DNA of 64,000 bases from an uncultured Cryomorphaceae bacterium (lineage in GTDB: Bacteria; Bacteroidota; Bacteroidia; Flavobacteriales; Schleiferiaceae): NCBI GenBank assembly GCA_902614915.1, contig CACMMX010000001.1, forward strand, positions 1 to 64,000, read 5' to 3'. The notes beneath the pieces were generated by a model, which saw nothing but the letters and a program-made list of their open reading frames with translations, was not told where the DNA came from and did no database searches. How positions within the stretch are numbered: the stretch's first letter is position 1; every line of letters starts with the position of its first letter. Of this stretch, positions 30,097 through 43,919 are shown piece after piece. A program made the position numbers and the translations under genes.

Positions 30097-30297
30097 GTTC
30101 GGTGGTTTATTAAAAATCGCTCTCTCAATTGTAGCCTTCATTTCAGCTAAAAATATTTCAAATATCGTTGTTAATAACTGTGGGAAAAACCCAAATGTTG
30201 TGGCTTGGTATTGGCTGAAATCATAGCCATGTTTGTATAGGTCGTTTAAGCGGTAACACGCTGCAATGAATCTACTCCGCTGACTAACAGAAAACAT
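30088..30297 (-). CDS. Small hypothetical protein convergent to the DUF3109 gene
   Basis: 69-aa ORF, hydrophobic centre, overlaps stop of the DUF3109 gene by 9 bp; coding status uncertain. Confidence 0.4.
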   Translation of the reverse strand: MFSVSQRSRFIAACYRLNDLYKHGYDFSQYQATTFGFFPQLLTTIFEIFLAEMKATIERAIFNKPPNLK

Positions 30298-30363: not shown

Positions 30364-31344
30364 ATGCAACAAGAGCCAATTTTACAAGAGAATAAAAACA
30401 GGTTTGTTATTTTTCCAATTCAGCACAGTGATATTTGGGATTGGTATAAAAAGCAAGAAGCATCTTTTTGGACTGCAGAGGAGATTGATTTACATCAAGA
30501 TGTCGTGGATTGGAAAAAGCTCAATGATGATGAACGATATTTTCTCAAACATATCTTAGCATTCTTTGCCGCATCTGATGGAATTGTAAATGAAAATCTA
30601 GCAGAAAATTTTGTTAACGAAGTGCAATATTCCGAGGCAAAATTTTTCTATGGTTTTCAAATCATGATGGAAAACATACATAGTGAAATGTATTCTCTGC
30701 TCATAGACACCTTAGTTGATAACGATGTCGAAAAAGATGAATTGTTTAATGCTATTGAACGTTTTCCCGCAATAAAGAAAAAAGCGGATTGGGCATTACG
30801 CTGGATTGAGTCAGATTCTTTTGCTGAACGCTTAATTGCCTTTGCTGCAGTGGAAGGAATATTTTTCTCCGGAGCTTTTTGTAGTATTTTTTGGATGAAG
30901 AAACGCGGATTATTGCCAGGCTTAGCCACTTCAAATGAATTTATTTCTCGAGATGAAGGTCTCCATAGAGATTTTGCATGTCATTTACATAATCAGCATT
31001 TAGTCCAAAAAGTTCCTGTGGAGAGAATTACTCAAATTATAGTCGAGGCACTCAATATTGAACGAGAATTTATTACCGAATCATTACCTGTAAACCTAAT
31101 AGGAATGAATGCTAAGTTAATGTCAGAATACCTTGAGTTTGTAACAGATCACTTATTAGAAACATTGAATTGTCCCAAGGTATATGGTACTGCAAATCCT
31201 TTTGATTTTATGGATATGATTTCGCTTGAAGGGAAAACAAACTTTTTTGAAAAAAGAGTTTCAGAATATAAAAAAGCTGGAGTTGGGGAAAGCCAAGACG
31301 ACCACAATTTCGATCATGCCTTTGGAAACGAAGCAAGTTTCTAG
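30364..31344 (+). CDS. nrdB: Ribonucleoside-diphosphate reductase class I beta subunit
   Basis: [44 protein letters not shown] di-iron ligand motifs. Confidence 0.98.
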
Positions 31345-31380: not shown

Positions 31381-33870
31381 ATGATGCGCGTACTTAAAAG
31401 AGACGGAAGAAAAGAGGCAGTAAAGTTTGATAAGATTACTGCACGCATAGAAAAATTATGCTATGGATTGAGCGAATATGTAGACCCAGTAGCTGTTGCT
31501 AAGCGCGTTGTTGACGGCGTTTATGATGGTGTAACAACTTCTGAACTTGATAATTTGGCCGCGGAGACTGCAGCTTCAATGACTATCAAGCATCCTGATT
31601 ACGCAAACTTAGCAGCCAGAATAGCAGTAAGTAATTTACATAAAAGCACTAAAAAAAGCTTTTCCGAAACGATACAGGATTTACACGAATATATAAACCC
31701 CGAAACGGGTAAAAGAGCTCCATTGATTGCAGATGATGTGTATGAAATCATTCAAGGTAATGCAGAGTATCTTGATTCTCAATTAATATATGATAGGGAT
31801 TTTTCATATGATTACTTCGGTTTTAAAACGTTGGAAAGATCCTATCTCCTACGAATGCACGGTAAAATAGTAGAGCGGCCTCAGCATATGTTGATGCGCG
31901 TGAGTATTGGTATTCACAAAGACGACTTGGAAGGCGCCTTGGAAACCTATGAGCTCATGAGTAAGAAATATATGACACATGCAACTCCAACGTTATTCAA
32001 TGCCGGTACACCCAAGCCTCAAATGAGTTCCTGCTTTCTTTTAACCATGCAGGAAGATAGTATAGATGGTATTTATGATACATTGAAACAAACAGCTAAG
32101 ATTTCACAAAGTGCCGGCGGAATAGGCCTAAGTATTCATAATGTGCGTGCGACAGGCTCGTACATTGGTGGTACTAACGGAACTTCAAATGGTATTGTTC
32201 CAATGCTTAGGGTGTATAATGATACTGCTCGCTATGTAGACCAAGGTGGTGGAAAACGAAAAGGGTCTTTTGCTATTTATGTTGAACCATGGCATGCTGA
32301 TATTTATGATTTCTTGGATTTGAAGAAGAACCATGGAAAAGAGGAAATGCGAGCAAGAGATCTTTTCTATGCAATGTGGATTCCTGACTTATTTATGGAG
32401 CGAGTTGAAAAGAATGAGGATTGGACTCTTATGTGTCCAAATGAATGCCCTGGCTTGTTTGATTTCCATGGACAAGAATTTGTAGACTTGTATGCAAAGT
32501 ATGAAAGTGAAGGTAAGGGTCGTCGTACCGTGAAAGCGCGCGATGTTTGGGCTAAGATTATGGAAAGCCAAATAGAAACAGGGACACCATATATGCTTTA
32601 TAAGGACGCAGCAAATTTGAAATCAAACCAGCAAAACTTAGGTACTATTCGTTCTTCGAACCTATGTACTGAAATTTTAGAATACACCTCAACCGATGAG
32701 GTTGCTGTTTGTAACCTTGCCTCAATAGCTCTTTCTATGTTTGTAGAAGATGGAGTATTCGATCATCAAAAATTATACGATGTAACTTATAAAGTAACTT
32801 ACAATTTAAATCAAGTAATTGACCGCAATTACTATCCAGTCGCAGAAGCACGTAATTCCAATATGCGTCATCGACCAGTGGGTTTGGGCGTTCAAGGTTT
32901 AGCAGATACTTTCATCAAACTGCGTGTGCCTTTTGATTCAGATGAAGCAAAGGTATTGAATAAAGAGATTTTTGAAACGATGTATTTTGCTGCTGTGTCT
33001 TCCTCAAAAGATCAAGCCATTAAGGATGGTACCTACGAATCCTATGAAGGTTCACCAATATCCAAAGGCCAATTTCAACATAACCTTTGGGGTGTTGAAG
33101 ATGATGAGTTAAGTGGACGATGGAACTGGCAAGAACTTCGGGAGGAAGTTAAGAAACACGGTGTAAGAAATAGCCTCTTAATGGCACCAATGCCAACAGC
33201 TTCGACGTCTCAGATATTAGGGAATAATGAGTGTTTTGAACCGTATACTTCAAATGTGTATACGCGTCGCGTATTATCTGGTGAATTTATTGTTGTGAAT
33301 AAGCATTTGCTTAACGATCTTATAGAGTTAGGTCTTTGGAATGATGATATGAAAAATGCATTGATGGCAACCAATGGTTCTGTACAAAATATTGATGGTG
33401 TTCCAGAAAATCTTAAGGCTATATATAAGACCGTTTGGGAAATATCAATGAGAGATATTCTCGATATGGCAGCTGACCGTGGGCTATTCATTGACCAGAG
33501 CCAAAGTTTGAATCTTTTTATGGAAAGTCCAAATATGGGTAAATTAACCTCTATGCACTTTTATGCGTGGAAAAAAGGGTTGAAAACCGGGATGTATTAC
33601 TTGAGATCTAAACCAGCATCTAGTGCAATCAAGTTTACAGTTAAGAAAAATGCGAAGACTGCTATGAGTCCGAGTGTGAGTGCTGGTGTTACCGGTGATA
33701 ATGTTCAGGTAGATTCTGCTACTACTCCTGCACCATCTCAAGTTGAGGTTGAAGCTAGAGTAAAACTTCAAAAAGAGGCCTTGGTAGAGGTGAGCGAAAA
33801 GTCAAACACTAAGAATAAAGTTGTCTGTTCTGTAGAGAATAATGAGGAATGTGCGTCATGTGGTTCGTAG
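31381..33870 (+). CDS. nrdA: Ribonucleoside-diphosphate reductase class I alpha subunit
   Basis: N-terminal ATP-cone; [30 protein letters not shown]-terminal redox tail [14 protein letters not shown]. Confidence 0.99.
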
Positions 33871-39289: not shown

Positions 39290-40467
39290 TACAAATCAAT
39301 TTTATACATAAATAACAATTGGCCCTCATACAATTTCAAGTCTTGAGATGCTAGATTGTAATACGTAGCAACTTCTTCAATAGGAGTACTTTCAAAACGT
39401 TGCATACCGATTTTTTCAAGTACCATCCAGTTGCCGATATTGGGAGATAATGCACGACTAAAGAGACGGTGTAAACGTAATTTTTTTGCTTGCTCAACTG
39501 TGGCTGATGCACATTCTGTAGCAAAACCTTTTCCCCAATACGCTTTGAAAAATCTAAAACCTAAATCGATACCCCAGTTATTATTGACTAATTCGCACCA
39601 GCCTAGGGGTTTTTTAGAAGTGTTTTCTATAACCATCCATCGACCGAAGCCGTCCCGCTGATAATTTGGATAAGAATGGATGATGTCTAATGCATTTTCT
39701 TCACTGGAAAAGCCAGCATTCCCTATATAACGTGTCACTGAAGGGTCTGAATTGAGCCTACATAACCAGTGCGCATCGTTTGGCTCCCACTCTCTTAAAT
39801 GAGTACGTAATGACTTGAAAGGAATCATTTTTTTTCGATGGGATGCCATGCAGATATAGTGCTTTCCCATTTTAGCAACTTGAACTAAACATTGCATTTG
39901 ATAAGGCCGTTGTGCGCATGTCTTATTAATCCAAGCTATACCCCAACCTTGTTTTTTGATTTTATCCCATTCAAAAGAGACAATGTTCAAATCATCTTTG
40001 AACTCAATACCTCCTGCACCATATAGCTTAAATAGACTTTCCTTAATTCCCCAAATGAATTGAACCGCATCTTGCGTTGAACATTGGAATTTCTCCACTT
40101 CTTTTTGTGAAGTGAATTTTGAACTTATACTTTGTATATTCTGTCGTTCAACCTCAATGTCTATACCAACTTCAAGATCTTCGCTATGGCATGCTGTAGC
40201 ACCTTCTTCACAATGACTAAGACTGATAAAGGCATTCGGAATTACAGGTTTTTTTTCCTCATATTTTAATTCTGAAATAGTACCGCAAACTTGTAACAGT
40301 GCAGCACGACTGTAAACAAACTCTTTTTTCTTATACGAGTTGGTAAATGTTGTATACCGATACGCATCTATTGGACAAAATAGTTTTACTATGTCTGATT
40401 CGTGGTACGTGGGGTTGATTGAAACCCGAATGCTACTAGATAGAAATTTAAACGGATAACTCAACAT
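39289..40467 (-). CDS. Fusion of 4'-phosphopantetheinyl transferase and GNAT (RimJ/RimL-like) acetyltransferase
   Basis: PPTase VGIDIEVERQNIQSISSKFTSQKEVEKF...WGIKESLFKLYG; GNAT LGFRFFKAYWGKGFATECASATVEQA...NWMVLEKIGM. ORF-track start is 40524; Met at 40467 preferred because the longer start overlaps the ahcY promoter. Confidence 0.85.
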   Translation of the reverse strand: MLSYPFKFLSSSIRVSINPTYHESDIVKLFCPIDAYRYTTFTNSYKKKEFVYSRAALLQVCGTISELKYEEKKPVIPNAFISLSHCEEGATACHSEDLEVGIDIEVERQNIQSISSKFTSQKEVEKFQCSTQDAVQFIWGIKESLFKLYGAGGIEFKDDLNIVSFEWDKIKKQGWGIAWINKTCAQRPYQMQCLVQVAKMGKHYICMASHRKKMIPFKSLRTHLREWEPNDAHWLCRLNSDPSVTRYIGNAGFSSEENALDIIHSYPNYQRDGFGRWMVIENTSKKPLGWCELVNNNWGIDLGFRFFKAYWGKGFATECASATVEQAKKLRLHRLFSRALSPNIGNWMVLEKIGMQRFESTPIEEVATYYNLASQDLKLYEGQLLFMYKIDL

Positions 40468-40478
40468 AAACTGAACTG

Positions 40479-40508
40479 TTTGTAAGACGCTGGTGTTGTA
40501 TATCTTTG
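40479..40508 (+). promoter_or_regulatory. Bacteroidetes-type promoter of ahcY (TTTG-N18-TATCTTTG)
   Basis: -33-like TTTG at 40479-40482 and -7 TAnnTTTG match TATCTTTG at 40501-40508; start codon 19 nt further on. Confidence 0.75.
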
Positions 40509-40527
40509 CATCAAATTTAATCACTTT

Positions 40528-42557: not shown

Positions 42558-42590
42558 AGACCCCTGTAGTGCATAGTGCTACAGGGGTCT
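42558..42590. terminator. Rho-independent terminator-like hairpin between convergent genes
   Basis: Perfect 12-bp stem agacccctgtag-tgcatagtg-ctacaggggtct. Confidence 0.75.
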
Positions 42591-42613: not shown

Positions 42614-42736
42614 TTAGCTACCGCAAGCTTCGCATTCTGGATTGTCAATACTGCAGGCTTCGGGCTGTTCTGCTTGTTCTAGTTCTTGGACGAAATTTGC
42701 GAAAGAATCGTCTATTCTGGAATCGTTAGTGTTCAT
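42614..42736 (-). CDS. 40-aa small protein with NrdA-tail-like C-terminus: MNTNDSRIDDSFANFVQELEQAEQPEACSIDNPECEACGS
   Basis: Own translation of the minus strand (below ORF-track length cutoff); C-terminus parallels the NrdA tail [14 protein letters not shown] encoded at 33829-33870. Confidence 0.65.
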   Translation of the reverse strand: MNTNDSRIDDSFANFVQELEQAEQPEACSIDNPECEACGS

Positions 42737-42932
42737 TGCGTATGTGTTTTGTTTTGTCTCTTTTCTAAACTACCAAATGGATTTACTCATTTGCGACTTA
42801 TCTAAAAAGCGTTATTAACAATTTCATTTTTTGATTTTGTGGGAGTTAGCCGTCATTTTTTTAATAACTCGCTCATCGAATTGAAAAAATATTAAAAAGG
42901 AAGATGCAATTTGTAGTTAAATATGAGTTTCT

Positions 42933-43919
42933 ATGTTAACGAATCGTTTCATAAATCTGCTTATTACGTTTCTTTTTGCTTATCACGTAAGTGCACAAAT
43001 AAATATTCGTAAAGCTTATATCCAAGAATTTTCACAGATCGCAGTAGATGAAATGAATAGGAGCGGCATTCCCGCCTCAATCACTTTAGCTCAAGGTATT
43101 TTGGAGAGTGGTAATGGACAAAGTGAATTGGCTAATAAGTCAAATAATCATTTTGGAATAAAGTGTCACAGTACTTGGAAAGGCGAAAAGGTGTTTCATG
43201 ATGATGATAGTAAGGGAGAATGTTTTCGTGCTTATGATAATCCCAAACATAGCTACGAAGATCACACGGATTTCTTAGTTCGTGGTTCTAGATATGAATT
43301 TCTATTTGAATTAGAATTGACCGACTATCGCGGTTGGGCAAGAGGACTCAAAAAAGCTGGGTATGCTACAGCACCTGACTATGCCGATAAATTAATTCGG
43401 ATAATAGAGGATGAAAATCTACACAGATTTGACCTTACATTATCTGCACCATTAATCGTGTCAGGAGATACGATAGTTTCCAAGATTACTGGACCTACAT
43501 TGAGTGAAAAAGGGAAGGTGGTTAAAAACTCAAAACGAAAATTTTTGATTCATAGACTGAAATATCATGAAAATAAAACACCATACATTATTCTTCAGCA
43601 TGGTGAATCTATCGAATCCATTGCAGATTCGTTACATATGCGAATCGCAGTTTTACTCGCTATAAACGACGCCGGATACGAAACGGTATTCAATGCCGGT
43701 GAAGCTGTTTATATTGATTACAAAAAAGGTCGTGTAAAACAAAAATATATGGTCGCGCCTAAAGGGACCACTATGAGGGCGATAAGCCAACAATATGCCG
43801 TTCCAATTCGTAAGCTCTATAAATACAATGATTTTAAAATAGGTCAGCAACCCAAAACGAGCGAACAAATTAGACTGAAGCCAAAGTCAATTAAGGAACG
43901 ATTATCTCGTGAAAGATGA
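42933..43919 (+). CDS. Peptidoglycan glucosaminidase (N-acetylglucosaminidase domain) with C-terminal LysM-like repeats
   Basis: SIAQ-type IPASITLAQGILESGNGQSELANKSNNHFGIKCH; HGESIESIADSLHMRIAVLLAIN and APKGTTMRAISQQYAVPIRKLYKYN. Confidence 0.92.
   Translation: MLTNRFINLLITFLFAYHVSAQINIRKAYIQEFSQIAVDEMNRSGIPASITLAQGILESGNGQSELANKSNNHFGIKCHSTWKGEKVFHDDDSKGECFRAYDNPKHSYEDHTDFLVRGSRYEFLFELELTDYRGWARGLKKAGYATAPDYADKLIRIIEDENLHRFDLTLSAPLIVSGDTIVSKITGPTLSEKGKVVKNSKRKFLIHRLKYHENKTPYIILQHGESIESIADSLHMRIAVLLAINDAGYETVFNAGEAVYIDYKKGRVKQKYMVAPKGTTMRAISQQYAVPIRKLYKYNDFKIGQQPKTSEQIRLKPKSIKERLSRER

Follow-up and report, generated by a model that had tools for sequence, protein, structure and literature searches.

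The window, that is, the whole stretch of 64,000 nucleotides that was analysed, carries at positions 42614-42736 of the minus strand (stop codon included) a gene for a 40-residue micropeptide, MNTNDSRIDDSFANFVQELEQAEQPEACSIDNPECEACGS, which has orthologues in related genomes. A first-pass annotation had called this open reading frame, and its strand, coordinates and 40-residue sequence were all confirmed on re-reading, as was the perfect 12-bp terminator hairpin (42558-42590, minus strand; -21.9 kcal/mol, z = -6.0) that lies 3' of the peptide gene, between two convergent genes. Most relatives have GC-rich inverted repeats followed by T-runs at the corresponding position, although the sequences differ. 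The divergent neighbour of the peptide gene encodes a glucosaminidase (42933-43919, plus strand; PF01832, 3.3e-39) and adjoins it in 17 of the 17 genus genomes having the peptide. Elsewhere in the window (39292-40524, minus strand), a gene for a 411-residue fusion of a phosphopantetheinyl transferase domain (ACPS) and a GNAT acetyltransferase domain adjoins ahcY.

The resident class I RNR is encoded on the plus strand by nrdB (small subunit, 30364-31344; PF00268, 1.4e-108) and nrdA (large subunit, 31381-33870; PF02867), the latter being the only RNR large subunit found in the 86%-complete genome. The distance of 8.7 kb between the peptide gene and nrdA was borne out, and the redox tail of NrdA was found where it had been placed, save that it starts at 33826 (to 33870 with its stop codon), 3 bases from the earlier figure of 33829.

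Conservation of the peptide gene within the genus

Sixteen of the 24 other genus genomes keep the peptide at 80-88% identity over all 40 residues, and for this reason its match with the NrdA tail is not a product of chance. Every one of the 17 genus genomes in which the locus is assembled carries the gene. Over these 17 sequences dN averages 0.038 and dS 1.37, with a median dN/dS of 0.03, and third codon positions account for 31 of the 42 variable nucleotide columns; both a conserved reading frame in relatives and purifying selection, which the first-pass annotation had proposed as tests, are therefore present. The interval 42614-42736 of the minus strand is a real, strongly conserved gene, too short to be picked up by gene callers. 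For the peptide as a whole, no full-length match to a Pfam, NCBIfam or PHROG family was found; the NrdA profile NF005544 of NCBIfam aligns with it marginally, through its last stretch (profile positions 939-964 of 965), with E = 0.004, far below the family cut-off.

True absence from the other eight genus genomes is unsupported, since these have assembly gaps at the locus: contigs stop there in G006, G018 and G023, the neighbouring gene is only partial in G020, where the ahcY anchor was also not found, and the same anchor was not found in the remaining four. In the metagenome assemblies, contig ends are unusually frequent in the 2 kb or so around the peptide gene (G004, G006, G009, G013, G014, G016, G017, G018, G023 and G024), perhaps as a result of strain variation there.

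A conserved helix followed by an NrdA-type redox tail

The part of the peptide that matches NrdA is its last 13 residues. This tail, CSIDNPECEACGS-stop, agrees with the end of NrdA, as was first noticed, in three cysteines, the CxxC and the terminal GS, with a one-residue difference in length; it is encoded by codons 28-40 (42617-42655, minus strand), follows the pattern C-x6-C-x2-C-G-S-stop, and was recognized as a redox tail by its cysteine conservation and its match to the NrdA tail. Codons 3-21 (42674-42730, minus strand) specify an acidic amphipathic helix with the core [FWL]xx[FW][VILM]xx[LM], which we propose as a docking element. AlphaFold2, run on a 40-row alignment, predicted a helix at residues 3-21 (block pLDDT 69/90) and left the tail unstructured, in a model of modest quality overall (mean pLDDT 75). 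This predicted form sets the peptide apart from thioredoxin, glutaredoxin and NrdH redoxins, in whose thioredoxin fold the CxxC opens a helix, nor does the 40-residue peptide contain the ten-stranded catalytic barrel of NrdA, its ATP-cone or all-alpha domains or any Pfam RNR domain.

Alignment of 40 host and viral peptides showed the same order throughout, with an acidic helix, a short linker and then C[ST][IV][DN][ND]P[ED]CE[AN]CGS-stop, with some variation around invariant positions comprising the three cysteines and the glycine. Family members are 33-55 residues long and typically end in CSIDNP[ED]CE[AN]CGS-stop; the helix core motif occurs in 93 of 95 viral peptides, and the C-x6-C-x2-C spacing in 94 of these 95 as well as in all host peptides. 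Variants of the tail include DNPDCEAC and DDEDCENC. In the viral member L398 the helix motif is present as a tandem pair (NSWIVDL and DSWIVDL), hinting that the helix is a modular unit.

The first-pass annotation had described the peptide as copying the tail of the resident NrdA. The gene and its NrdA-type redox tail stand, but the copy does not: Bacteroidota NrdA tails read CSIDNPDDCEACGS, with C-x7-C spacing in 70 of the 73 that we collected, against C-x6-C in the peptide, and the helix is not derived from NrdA. A recent copying of the resident nrdA end is ruled out by this different spacing, the unrelated helix and the deep viral diversity described below. Searched against the PDB, the family profile instead matches best (E = 1e-4) the tail of Pseudomonas aeruginosa NrdA, PQACSIDNPDCEAC (5IM3), which has the x6 spacing and the form CSIDNP[DE]CEAC with three cysteines. 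The peptide has the redox tail ending in CxxCGS that marks class I NrdA but, unlike NrdA, is the product of a free-standing gene with no catalytic barrel.

Three cysteines together with acidic residues could bind metal, and the peptide might accordingly be a small Zn or Fe-S binder whose likeness to NrdA is coincidental. We consider this highly improbable, because SIDNP, CE[AN]CGS and the position of the stop codon are conserved as in NrdA, next to a separate helix, and because no spread of the tail over unrelated proteins was seen. The occurrence of a generic metal-binding tail on many unrelated proteins had been named beforehand as a possible refutation, and it was not seen among the 23 loci confirmed in a scan of 85,462 genomes: 18 of these encode the peptide, three are NrdA genes, and the other two are an unrelated haloarchaeal internal match (Haloarcula, L061, rejected as a family member) and an unexplained 30-residue Marinoscillum ORF. 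Judged by its sequence, the tail of the peptide is of the class I NrdA redox type and not a generic metal-binding tail.

Distribution among viruses and other bacteria

In another Flavobacteriales family, six of 12 genomes carry a 50-residue orthologue, whose gene neighbours differ from those in the genus and in most carriers include pyrG and holA nearby. Overlapping samples at three ranks (order, 398 genomes; class, 395; phylum, 398) yielded no further standalone copy, and nearly all other strong matches in them were NrdA ends. Short nrdA-like tails in G432, G669 and G460 were set aside as recent duplications, fragments or frameshifts of nrdA; at L109 (G432:C8), two repeats of the nrdA end lie downstream of it, embedded in a PIN-like gene pair that is itself present in repeated copies. 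The Marinoscillum ORF of about 30 residues (L062:10001-10069, MDLSCDKIKNAKAGGSCDIDNPECEACGG), which lies upstream of the gene for a small predicted secreted protein, is possibly another free tail peptide. At about 5917-5982 of L037 (G044:C62), upstream of a miaE-like gene, a 48-residue frame ends in LDEARGSCDIDDPECEVRGS, a degenerate tail with two of the three cysteines.

The first-pass annotation had been silent on viruses, as it had on the conserved helix and on the promoter element treated below. Scanning IMG/VR with the host peptides returned 224 contigs with relatives, and a second scan built from viral members returned at least 361, the two sets overlapping so that the counts are not additive. 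At all 160 viral loci that were read the peptide is a standalone short ORF, and these loci encode 95 distinct peptides, close pairs of which show a median dN/dS of about 0.09. Neighbouring genes on the viral contigs include those for an M15 endolysin, an amidase, a 3TM holin, PhoH, a ParB-like protein, a sigma-70 factor, MazG, a Holliday-junction resolvase and a portal protein. NrdA or NrdB homologues were not found in the flanks of the 160 loci, as would be expected if the host provides the target; furthermore, none of 47 whole viral records contained an RNR large subunit, against exactly one in the host genome, a partial piece of evidence since most of these records are fragments of 8-62 kb. 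Nothing comparable was found in 50,697 cultured-phage records or in PHROGs, where only an Acinetobacter phage NrdA tail matched, weakly. A tree of 103 peptides (48 columns) nests the genus within viral peptides of the F type, at a distance from the second family, and so suggests two separate bacterial acquisitions of the peptide.

The peptide gene adjoins endolysin and holin genes in several unrelated phages and is divergent to a glucosaminidase gene in the bacterium. It could then be a phage gene with some other role, for example late in infection, that bacteria domesticated twice and whose tail serves a redox partner unrelated to RNR. We give this only a slight chance, as other phages place the gene beside those for PhoH, ParB-like, sigma, MazG or portal proteins, the second bacterial family has it beside pyrG or holA, and there is no constant partner gene. 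The position among lysis genes in several viruses nevertheless counts against the RNR-assisting role proposed below, since it is not the expected place for a gene of dNTP supply.

Promoter elements and a proposed role in RNR function

Alignment of the 17 upstream regions revealed several conserved elements on the minus strand: a -7-like element, TAGTTTAG (42765-42772), which we take to be of the Bacteroidota promoter type from its consensus; the rare 11-mer TTGTTAATAAC (42811-42821) within a longer element, CTAACTCCCACAAAATCAAAAAATGAAATTGTTAATAACGC (42809-42849); and a second box, GAGTTATYAAAAA (42858-42870). A genome motif search showed that TTGTTAATAAC exactly matches the promoter of nrdBA, whose element GTTGTTAATAACTGTGGGAAAAACCC (30167-30192, plus strand) was aligned in 17 genomes and sits just 5' of presumed -33/-7 boxes; in it GTTGTTAATAAC is invariant in nearly all genomes and is followed by TGTGGGAAAAACCC with two variable bases. 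Exact copies of TTGTTAATAAC occur twice in the window, at the nrdBA and peptide promoters, where 0.07 would be expected, and seven times in the 1.65-Mb genome, with four occurrences of the reversed control. The other genomic sites lie upstream of dnaN and of the HU gene, between glmM and a TPR gene, near a cytidine deaminase gene and inside rpmJ, and those at nrdBA, the peptide gene, dnaN, HU and glmM recur in relatives. Similar TTGTTNATAA boxes precede the peptide gene in most members of the second family. The motif was also seen near atpD in one genome (with TTGTTGATAAC) and near rpiB in two.

From all these positions (G000:C3, C20, C22 and C41; L191-L217), TTGTTAATAAC may define a replication-linked regulon in the genus. 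DnaA controls nrdAB and dnaN in E. coli, and the presence of nrdBA and dnaN in the gene set fits the DnaA targets of E. coli and B. subtilis; DnaA is a candidate binder, and TGTTAATAA (equivalent to TTATTAACA) differs from the DnaA box consensus TTATCCACA and the resemblance is partial.

In class I RNRs thioredoxin or glutaredoxin reduces the C-terminal tail, which in turn re-reduces the active site (PMC5704485). Taken together, the sequence evidence indicates that the peptide probably acts on RNR or on the electron donors of RNR. The reading that we favour, tentatively and at slightly less than an even chance, is that it is a free-standing redox tail acting in trans, whose helix docks while its CxxC relays electrons from redoxins to class I RNR and so stimulates the enzyme. 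The acidic amphipathic helix would dock on RNR (or on a redoxin), the CxxC tail would be reduced by thioredoxin or glutaredoxin, and from the tail electrons would reach the disulfide in the NrdA active site, in addition to those delivered by the tails of the enzyme itself. The bacterium would express the peptide under the promoter element common to nrdBA, and phages carrying it would obtain more dNTP from the exploited host RNR. We counted in favour of this reading the identity of the tail to NrdA down to non-cysteine residues, the invariant cysteines and glycine together with the dN/dS of hosts and viruses, and the presence of TTGTTAATAAC at both promoters.

A precedent for a free RNR tail is NrdJb of the split class II enzyme NrdJa/NrdJb of P. 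aeruginosa, a separate polypeptide whose C-terminal, RNR-type cysteine pair carries out thiol-disulfide exchange for NrdJa (PMC4520616). NrdJb differs in being part of a class II enzyme on which NrdJa depends and in having a Cys-rich, partly zinc-bound domain (PMC5704485), whereas the RNR at issue is of class I and the peptide is 33-55 residues long. Nor is the catalytic partner here one that lacks a Cys tail of its own: the genus and the second family both keep intact NrdA tails, which rules out the peptide as a replacement for a lost tail and indicates that it would add to the tails of NrdA.

The same features could describe a brake on RNR, in which the helix would block a docking site on NrdA (the one used by the NrdB C-terminal peptide is a possibility) and a mock tail would compete with the real one for the active site or for thioredoxin. 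Yeast Sml1, Dif1, Spd1 and Hug1 are likewise short, mostly disordered and genetically separate RNR-linked proteins, although they are eukaryotic inhibitors for which the literature consulted describes no mimicry of the R1 redox tail. Hug1 is induced with RNR and yet inhibits it (PMC4245953), so that co-expression with RNR is compatible with an inhibitor, and Sml1 is reported, in the title of Zhang 2007 as cited in PMC5704485, to act via the R1 C-terminus. By eye, the acidic aromatic helix also bears a loose likeness to the C-terminal tails of R2, for example FTFDADF. We nonetheless regard inhibition as unlikely, because an inhibitor needs no redox-active cysteine pair, yet the three cysteines and CxxC spacing are invariant, and because a DNA phage gains little by blocking the RNR of its host; homology to Sml or Hug domains gave no Pfam match above chance.

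The RNR tail being a natural redoxin substrate (PMC5704485), the peptide might alternatively be a thioredoxin or glutaredoxin adaptor or decoy, its tail a recognition tag that recruits, buffers or redirects redoxins and affects RNR indirectly or leaves it unaffected. In G051, trxB and msrA lie about 6-8 kb from the peptide gene, but no conserved linkage to redoxin genes was apparent in the loci read and the promoter motif ties the peptide to nrdBA and replication genes, and we hold this role to be about as doubtful as inhibition. Sequence comparison establishes the gene, the selection on it, its architecture, its occurrence across viral contigs and the promoter motif common to it and nrdBA; that the trans-acting tail binds NrdA, is reduced by a redoxin and stimulates the enzyme instead of inhibiting it is what we infer.

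The rate at which DNA precursors are made is set by RNR, and some phages are known to encode the complete enzyme. The T4 genes for NrdA, NrdB and NrdC, which raise dNTP supply, bring an enzyme or a folded redoxin, whereas the phages described here bring the tail alone, RNR not having been found on the records examined. In the literature searched there was no description of such a peptide, nor of the strings CEACGS and CSIDNP. We are aware of no counterpart to a free-standing RNR tail peptide that phages spread, nor of an earlier bacterial or phage RNR effector of this tail-only kind. We judge it an even call that environmental phages spread an undescribed class of 33-55-residue peptides that mimic the redox tail of host class I RNR and act in trans on it, and that at least two bacterial lineages have taken over and wired to the replication/nrdBA promoter programme. 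If this is true, a tail-only peptide would be a minimal way to reprogramme the dNTP supply of a host. The peptide makes it testable whether re-reduction of RNR by its tail limits cells, and, being a naturally occurring tail that comes with a putative docking helix, it may be used as a tool.
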